This document shows, in pieces, positions 9,548 through 50,749 of a stretch of DNA of 64,000 nt. The notes beneath the pieces are model-generated. The model ran no database searches, was not told the DNA's origin, and worked only from the letters and a program-made list of their open reading frames with translations. Every line of letters begins with the position of its first letter. Within the stretch, counting starts at the first letter, position 1. The translations under genes were made by a program, and so were the position numbers. The DNA comes from Martelella alba (lineage in GTDB: Bacteria > Pseudomonadota > Alphaproteobacteria > Rhizobiales > Rhizobiaceae), in NCBI RefSeq assembly GCF_006516955.1, contig NZ_VHLG01000001.1:1-64000 (forward strand), in the 5' to 3' direction.

Positions 9548-9571
9548 AAGGCGGCCTGATCGGGCCGCCTT
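9548..9571 (+). terminator. Hairpin after valS, left bracket of repeat copy 1
   Basis: AAGGCGGCC (9548-9556) pairs with GGCCGCCTT (9563-9571) around loop TGATCG. It has no T-tract. A near-match in inverted orientation (loop CGATCA) lies at 9781-9804 on the other side of the repeat element. Confidence 0.6.
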
Positions 9572-9579
9572 CAGGGGGG

Positions 9580-9773
9580 CTGACAAAACTCACCCCCTTC
9601 TGCTGATGTCATGCCTGTGCTTGTCACAGGCATCCAGCCGACGCGCGTCCGCGCGGCGAAAGGACTTGTCTATTCAAAGTCTTATGAAACTGGATCCCCG
9701 TGACAAGCACGGGGATGACGACGGAGGGGGCGGCCATTCCACCCAGAACAGGCAATCTGAACGACTTTGTCAG
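9580..9773. repeat. Dispersed intergenic element, copy 1 (194 bp)
   Basis: The element is bounded by 8-bp terminal inverted repeats CTGACAAA (9580-9587) and TTTGTCAG (9766-9773). It contains two perfect internal hairpins: ATGCCTGTG/CACAGGCAT at 9611-9633 and CCCCGTG/CACGGGG at 9696-9714. It shares long identical blocks with copy 2 at 26999-27192, which is the same length, and with the partial copy at 50567-50713. It has no coding capacity. It lies between the convergent valS and ABM genes. Confidence 0.85.
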
Positions 9774-9780
9774 CAGCCTG

Positions 9781-9807
9781 AAGGCGACCCGATCAGACTG
9801 CCTTTTT
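9781..9807. terminator. Hairpin with T-tract, right bracket of repeat copy 1
   Basis: AAGGCGACC (9781-9789) pairs imperfectly with GACTGCCTT (9796-9804), then TTT. It is the reverse complement of the hairpin at 9548-9571 with three differences. It could end transcription coming from valS. Confidence 0.6.
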
Positions 9808-25721: not shown

Positions 25722-25814
25722 GTTGCCGCGCGCGTGAACGCTGCGTCACCCATAGCCATCTTGCCGCCCGCGCCCAATTCGCCTATGTGTCAGTGGTGGC
25801 TGGCAAGACTGGCC

Positions 25815-25957
25815 ATGTTCTCGGGGCGGGGTGAAACTCCCCACCGGCGGTAAGTGTTTAATTACACAAAGCCCGCGAGCGCCCGGCAGTTCTGCCGGGG
25901 TCAGCAGATCCGGTGTCATTCCGGAGCCGACGGTTAAAGTCCGGATGTGAGAGAACA
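25815..25957 (+). ncRNA. FMN riboswitch (RFN element)
   Basis: The conserved RFN blocks appear in order: GTTCTCGGGGCGGGGTGAAA at the 5' side, ACCGGCGGTA, AGCCCGCGAGC, CCGGTGTCATTCCGG, GCCGACGGTTAAAGTCCGGA and closing GAGAGAAC. It precedes ribN by about 100 bp. Downstream, CTCCTTT-TCTG-AAAGGAG (about 25977-25994) can form a hairpin that could act as the expression platform; no U-tract follows, so translational control is the likelier mode. Confidence 0.95.
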
Positions 25958-26053
25958 GCAGGTAACGGCCTGGCCGCTCCTTTTCTGAAAGGAGGCCTGG
26001 GCGTTCCTGACGTTTGTCCCGGTTCCGTTGTTTGAAAAAAGGATCGCGGGGAC

Positions 26054-26969: not shown

Positions 26970-26991
26970 AGGCCGGGCGATCACCCGGCCT
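26970..26991 (+). terminator. Hairpin after ribN, left bracket of repeat copy 2
   Basis: AGGCCGGG-CGATCA-CCCGGCCT forms a perfect stem of eight. The identical 22 bases recur at 27200-27221 on the far side of the repeat element. Confidence 0.65.
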
Positions 26992-26998
26992 CAGATTA

Positions 26999-27192
26999 CT
27001 GACAAACCCTAGCTCCTTCCCTAACGTCATGCCTGTGCTTGGTCCACAGGCATCCAGCAGACGCGCGTCTGCGCGTCGAAAGACTCTGCTTATTCAGATC
27101 CTCAAGAATCTGGATCCCCGTGACAAGCACGGGGATGACGACGGAGGGGCGGCCATTCCACCCCGAACTGGCAATCTGAACGACTTTGTCAG
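26999..27192. repeat. Dispersed intergenic element, copy 2 (194 bp)
   Basis: Same length and same ends as copy 1: CTGACAAA (26999-27006) and TTTGTCAG (27185-27192). Internal hairpins lie at 27029-27053 (ATGCCTGTG/CACAGGCAT) and 27116-27134 (CCCCGTG/CACGGGG). The right half is nearly identical to copy 1. It lies between the convergent ribN and aldo/keto reductase genes. Confidence 0.85.
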
Positions 27193-27199
27193 CAGCCTG

Positions 27200-27224
27200 A
27201 GGCCGGGCGATCACCCGGCCTTTT
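27200..27224. terminator. Hairpin with T-run, right bracket of repeat copy 2
   Basis: The same 22-base hairpin as at 26970-26991, followed by TTT on the plus strand. Flanking bases mirror each other (AAA…CAG on the left, CTG…TTT on the right). Confidence 0.65.
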
Positions 27225-36976: not shown

Positions 36977-37142
36977 CGCTTTCGCCTTGCATTTCACGAT
37001 GAAAACAGGTATCGGCCAGCCATTCCACACGCAGGCTTTGGGATCTTCCGGGAGAAATCCGGCTGGTTCCGCCGGTGATGACCGTTCTTAAGGGCGTTCA
37101 TTCATGGGCTTGCGGAGGTTAAACCGGAAAAGGAGAAAAGGC

Positions 37143-50566: not shown

Positions 50567-50713
50567 GATCCGGCCGATGCGTGTCCGCGCGGTCAAAGCT
50601 TCTTTTGTTCAATGTCTTTTTGGGAGGGGGCTGGATCCCCGCGACAAGCGCGGGGATGACGGCGGAGAGGAATGCACTTCACCGCACACAGGCAATCTGA
50701 ACGACGTTGTCAG
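50567..50713. repeat. Dispersed intergenic element, partial copy 3
   Basis: Matches the right two-thirds of copies 1 and 2: a GTCCGCGCGG block, the hairpin CCCCGCG-ACAAG-CGCGGGG (50637-50655), the tail GGCAATCTGAACGAC and a terminal GTTGTCAG (50706-50713). The left end with CTGACAAA is missing or unrecognisable. In the hairpin a T-A pair of the other copies is replaced by C-G on both strands. It lies between the convergent lpxB and hspQ genes. Confidence 0.75.
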
Positions 50714-50749
50714 CTCTCTGAAGCCGACATGGGCCAGCCCTGGGGCTGC

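Follow-up and report, generated by a model that had tools for sequence, protein, structure and literature searches.

A multicopy palindromic element of Martelella alba with IS1182-type ends and duplicated flanking hairpins

The element and its copies in the window

The window, that is, the whole stretch of 64,000 nucleotides of Martelella alba DNA analysed here (contig NZ_VHLG01000001.1, positions 1 to 64,000), contains three copies of a short repeat, all on the plus strand. Copy 1 (9572..9781) lies 3' of a gene named valS from its translation, and copy 2 occupies 26991..27200. Both measure 210 bp, the outer 7–8 bp of the left end of copy 1 being degenerate (CAGGGGGG). Copy 3 (50568..50721), located 3' of an lpxB-like gene that was likewise named from its translation, is decayed and left-truncated and aligns with positions 60–209 of the consensus at 76% identity, in good agreement with the truncated third copy of the original prediction. 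The same prediction had bounded copies 1 and 2 by CTGACAAA and TTTGTCAG. Both copies were found where it had placed them, with 194 bp between these motifs, but the motifs are not the boundary of the element, as the conserved ends extend another 8 bp outwards at either side. The unit is about 209 bp (the modal length over 66 paired places in the genome) and has 16-bp ends TCAGACTGCTGACAAA..TTTGTCAGCAGTCTGA, with TCAG..CTGA as the outermost bases.

Two internal hairpins per copy, also predicted originally, were recovered in copy 1 (9611-9633 and 9694-9716) and in copy 2 (27029-27053 and 27114-27136). The inner core of copy 1 (9609..9727, plus strand) consists of two REP-like hairpins standing face to face and resembles dispersed repeats of Rhizobium and Sinorhizobium. 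Outside the element, a further hairpin adjoins each end. At copy 1, the left hairpin (9549..9571) has the same loop as the empty site of a sister species described below, and the right hairpin (9782..9804, plus strand) is decayed, carries the loop in inverted form and is followed by a T run. At copy 2, the left hairpin (26971..26990) is an exact direct duplicate of the right hairpin (27201..27220, plus strand), which has a T run. A pattern scan of the window for terminators made one call at copy 2, on its right hairpin, and none at copy 1, where the right hairpin also went without a call. A mechanical open frame of 151 aa that spans copy 2 and beyond was not counted as a gene. Short (about 209 bp), multicopy and without evident coding capacity, the element has the features of a MITE. 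Rfam returned two matches above the gathering score in the window, neither of them at the element: an FMN riboswitch (25813-25960) and an rpsB sRNA-family match (37026-37142).

Copies in the genome and their flanking hairpins

A search of the M. alba genome (G000) gave at least 41 near-full-length matches with E values of 4.1e-56 or better (40 of 121 candidates scored), which bears out the predicted dispersal of the repeat beyond chance. A right-end pattern of 20 bases, with at most 3 mismatches allowed, matched the same genome 170 times, compared with 19 times for the reversed control, a figure that is not a copy total because either end of one copy can match. The sample for closer analysis comprised 34 matches in the first 30 loci plus 40 further stretches fetched around right ends, and pairing the ends by rule in these loci gave 66 distinct places. 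Within this fetched part of the genome, 65 of the 66 end pairs were real copies: 61 aligned on the same strand to 150 or more of the 209 consensus positions (hereafter the verified copies), three aligned on the other strand and one over 141 positions. The remaining pair, at 964 in L030, failed the consensus alignment and was rejected as false. Another locus, L043, had been a candidate mobiliser, its ends lying 1444 bp apart, and proved to be an element interrupted by an insertion sequence of the IS481 family (L043:1740-2990 on C44; 280 bits, cut-off 224), which sits inside the second hairpin. The sister species carries the element at this site without the IS481-family insertion.

By eye, nearly all sites among the 34 matches had a GC-rich hairpin on both sides, its sequence differing from site to site. 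The similarity of the left to the right flank was scored in direct or inverted orientation, with pairs of flanks from different loci as a control. The score reached 24 or more in 51 of the 61 verified copies, compared with 31 of 3660 cross-locus pairs, and stayed below 24 in the other 10. An exact flank duplicate of at least 14 bp was kept in 17 of the 66 pairs, compared with 2 of 4290 cross pairs. Based on the better-scoring orientation, 50 of the 66 pairs were direct and 12 inverted, copy 1 among the latter, with 4 ties. Plain strand transfer predicts direct hairpin pairs alone, and simple insertion does not explain the inverted-loop minority. One inverted-loop pair of flanking hairpins, seen at L021 and L289, is common to M. 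alba and the sister species, indicating that this state is old and stable.

The gene context of the copies is of the terminator type. Among the 42 of 66 pairs with a direct score of at least 26, the sequence outside the left hairpin was A-rich in 36, that outside the right hairpin was T-rich in 29, and both were seen in 23. The open frames flanking the 61 verified copies, called by a longest-open-frame rule and not from annotation, were convergent in 29 cases, ran in the same direction in 27, diverged in 4 and were unclear in 1. Such an excess of convergent and same-direction neighbours is expected if insertion takes place at terminators. At one site (L003/L013) two elements stand in tandem with a common hairpin between them, and L316 in the congener G007 looks alike by eye; these arrangements suggest that duplicated hairpins become targets again. 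At the first tandem site, the sister species has a single 228-bp copy that is a partial match, and recombination loss in that species is a possible origin of the difference.

The sister species (G005) also supplied the comparison of an occupied with an empty site that the original prediction had called for. Its sequence is 87% identical to the window over the last 917 bp of valS, and 3' of this gene it carries a single hairpin, GGCGGCCTGATCGGGCCGCC, without the element. In the window, the element follows valS with hairpin GGCGGCCTGATCGGGCCGCC on its left and the decayed copy with inverted loop on its right. Hence, the second hairpin at copy 1 is a target duplication, and at this one empty site the two species differ by the insertion of the element plus one hairpin. 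At the site of copy 2, G005 (L288) carries the element in opposite orientation with the same hairpins on either side. Within the set, this G005 copy is closest to L018 (0.946), window copy 2 ranking third (0.930), and the closest relative of window copy 2 in the set is the G005 copy (0.930), figures that are compatible with both inversion in place and independent insertion. Overall, 20 stretches were fetched from G005; 19 of them contained end pairs, 17 of these 19 reached a flank score of 24, and 8 of the 20 stretches had flanks in common with those fetched from G000. In a search of 101 relatives with up to 7 candidates scored per genome, full-length matches occurred in G000 and G005 only, which provisionally indicates a narrow spread of the full-length element.

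IS1182-type ends and target duplication in relatives

The original prediction had reasoned that a transposase gene bounded by the same ends would identify the mobiliser, and such genes were found in relatives, in insertion sequences of the IS1182 family. The M. alba genome itself, a draft of 55 contigs, gave no DUF772 match and no IS1182 transposase match, so mobilisation there would be historical. DUF772 was present in 32 of 101 genomes. Four of 30 DUF772 loci were checked for ends of their own. Three of them (L100, L104 and L106) have ends of the MITE type with 0–1 mismatch each and a hairpin on both sides, with exact hairpin duplicates at L100 and L104. The fourth, L103, is of the IS1182 type with diverged ends (3 and 2 mismatches) and has no hairpin duplicate. 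The L104 protein scored 478 bits against the IS1182 model NF033551 (cut-off 270). When the MITE consensus was compared with IS1182 copies, the best matches were the outer 16–19 bp, which are exact, and nothing but these ends was among the best matches. Decayed remnants of the IS, its end included, remain in G007 and G003, two other species of the genus.

The exact right-end pattern was found in 11 of 13 genomes of the genus and in 23 of the 101 relatives, with one control match overall. From four congeners, 20 further stretches yielded 17 end pairs, 108–221 bp long, of which 13 reached a flank score of 24. Sequence from two congeners agreed at 100% with plasmid records of Martelella sp. NC20 and M. 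lutilitoris. The 15 of these 17 MITEs that were viewed varied in their cores, of which there were several kinds containing either one or two hairpins. A distinct MITE family in G008 (L300, L303 and L309) is 114 bp long and has, between the same ends, just one internal hairpin.

We then examined target duplication in full-length IS1182 copies. Of 189 places found in a scan of named genomes with the L104 protein, the best 80 were kept. Both ends and enough flank were present in 48 of them, 3 stood at a contig edge and 29 gave no match for one end, 26 of these being truncated by a contig end and 3 (L197, L198 and L243) not. The 48 copies represent different sites and are not independent by species, several being from Mesorhizobium sophorae. 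An exact direct duplicate of 16–26 bp was present in 38 of these 48 (from the best 80 of 189), compared with 2 of 2256 cross pairs. In 37 of the 38 the duplicate was centred within 1 base of a hairpin dyad, where random placement would give 7%. The length of the duplicate showed a weak correlation with that of the longest stem that could form when the A/T tails were counted in (r 0.28; equal in 5 of 38). Under a rule set after this result, in which the stem was ended at the outermost G-C pair, agreement with the GC stem-loop was closer (r 0.61; equal in 20 of 38 and within 2 bases in 34 of 38), which places the cut, in most cases, at the junction of the GC stem and the A/T tails. The ten copies without an exact duplicate were L174, L176, L201, L202, L216, L232, L236, L238, L241 and L249. 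Several of these, namely L174, L176, L201 and L238, stand between two different hairpins and are perhaps products of recombination between copies.

Six more distant, plasmid-borne IS1182 copies, chosen for spread at 55–80% protein identity, came from Salinivibrio kushneri, Alkalihalophilus pseudofirmus, Bacillus subtilis, Vibrio penaeicida, Sphingobium and Brevibacillus borstelensis. In this spot check of 6 among 2795 matching records, all six had 18–20 bp, hairpin-like by eye, repeated at both ends. Taken with the empty site, the ends common to the element and the IS copies of relatives bear out the predicted MITE-like, non-autonomous nature of the element. The IS1182 insertion sequences (NF033551, with a DUF772 transposase) have the same 16–19 bp ends and show hairpin duplication in most copies examined; they possess a transposase gene, which the MITE lacks. 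The terminal inverted repeats of the element are those of the full-length IS, with the outer 16–19 bp identical, and so are target choice and duplication (51 of 61 MITE copies and 38 of 48 IS copies). The mobile-element reading of the original prediction thus stands in its essentials, with a larger unit, and with true ends and duplicated hairpins that it had missed.

Proposed insertion at terminator hairpins and its alternatives

We consider it very probable that the element is an IS1182-family MITE that was moved in trans and inserted at terminator hairpins, duplicating the hairpin in the process. A trans-acting IS1182 transposase, of the kind present in relatives, would recognise the 16–19 bp ends, and the element would enter at the foot of a transcription-terminator hairpin. 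The DDE transposase would attack both strands at the base of the GC stem, probably on a hairpin extruded as a cruciform, and link the 3' ends of the element to the two positions attacked; gap repair would then leave one full hairpin on each side of the element. Attack at the hairpin feet would produce a target duplication without fixed length, set by the GC stem-loop, and a duplication that follows the hairpin in this way may best be explained by attack points that come close together in space at the extruded cruciform. The A run would tend to stay with the left hairpin copy and the T run with the right, so that both neighbouring genes should keep a terminator and insertion should be nearly harmless. 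The neighbouring genes probably retain their stop signals after insertion.

It is quite unlikely that the element merely inserted near terminators and that the second hairpin was copied later, by gene conversion or template switching, both genes needing a terminator. The inverted-loop hairpin pairs at 12 of 66 places would fit such copying, and the arms of a large inverted repeat could template one another. However, in 32 of the 38 full-length IS copies with a duplicate, the exact direct duplicates adjoin the IS ends without a gap, which is the signature of insertion. Gene conversion or template switching may still account for the inverted-loop minority.

Quite improbable is an origin as a palindromic mosaic of the RIME, Bru-RS or REP type that spread by an unrelated or unknown route, its IS1182-like ends being incidental. 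REP elements are moved by RAYT transposases and are characterised by a conserved tetranucleotide at the hairpin foot together with a RAYT gene. The core of the element (~110 bp) matched dispersed repeats in 103 plasmid records (Rhizobium 50, Sinorhizobium 49, Agrobacterium 3 and Neorhizobium 1). None of the 103 covered more than 80% of the query, and the 20 of 103 matches listed had 46–50% query coverage and 70–80% identity. These intergenic palindromic repeats of Rhizobium, which we take to be of the RIME type, are like the core of the element in having two facing REP-like hairpins and unlike the element in that the four copies viewed, one of them between kdpC and kdpD, have no IS1182-type ends. 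The copies of the element, however, have a common boundary at IS1182-type ends, the duplication begins at that boundary, and other MITEs of the genus combine the same ends with different cores. The RIME-type mosaic that the original prediction had offered as an alternative is supported for the inner ~110 bp only, and the most likely course of events is that IS1182-type ends came to surround a palindromic repeat. Finally, that the flanking hairpins belong to the element, as a terminator pair of its own carried to each new site, is highly improbable, since the hairpins found at both ends of most copies are site-specific in sequence by the cross-locus controls and the sister species, at its empty valS site, has the same hairpin in a single copy.

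Duplication of a terminator hairpin by an IS1182-family MITE can be compared with what is described for this family. ISfinder lists direct repeats of 0–60 bp for the IS1182 family, and specialists may have seen long repeats. According to the available parts of the sources, IS1272/TnSha1 of staphylococci, a member of the family with 16-bp ends, chooses its target hairpins, among them several confirmed terminators, for their structure rather than their sequence, and is reported to remove the hairpin or replace it, with no duplication (PMC4923244, PMC5678879), with blunt hairpin deletions reported in PMC4923244. The 2017 article PMC5678879 draws whole-hairpin duplication as one of three pathways, IS1272 taking the hairpin-losing one. 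The element is thus like IS1272/TnSha1 in its hairpin targets and 16-bp ends and unlike it in that the hairpin is doubled; at the valS site and in the IS copies, no replacement of the stem-loop of the IS1272 type was seen. A general statement in PMC12056078 has IS1182-family elements moving with or without target duplication and possibly recognising DNA structure. MITEPye1 of Paracoccus yeei is a gene-less, intergenic element of 159 bp with IS1182-like ends, for which 1–3 chromosomal copies are reported (PMC11578231). It differs from our element in its 4-bp direct repeats, and the available part of that article makes no mention of terminator duplication. Repeats of 4 bp are also listed for ISPse1 (PMC3281130) and ISCaa15 (PMC3196728). 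Beyond the alternative drawn in PMC5678879, the accessible portions of the open-access literature yielded no description of an IS1182 element duplicating a whole hairpin.

A broader reading is tentative, and we hold it to be somewhat less probable than an even chance: duplication of whole terminators by structure-guided insertion could be a general mode of IS1182 elements across phyla. The extruded hairpin would be read as a four-way junction and both ends joined at its feet, whatever its length, and the family would multiply terminators as self-renewing, nearly harmless landing sites. On the same tentative reading, many palindromic intergenic repeats of Rhizobiaceae would be cargo of an IS1182 system, and variants of one mode of recognition would account for both the hairpin loss of IS1272 and the 4-bp repeats, which are perhaps duplications of the loop. 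The 4-bp repeats of ISPse1, MITEPye1 and ISCaa15 and the duplication-free IS1272 stand against such generality across IS1182.

A DDE-type element with a target duplication that tracks the hairpin would have to recognise DNA structure and not rely on a fixed spacing of cuts. The proposed insertion would also give a simple reason for the build-up of the element, in that each insertion should leave both genes terminated and make a new target. These results further point to a possible mobiliser of one class of palindromic intergenic repeats in this bacterial group.
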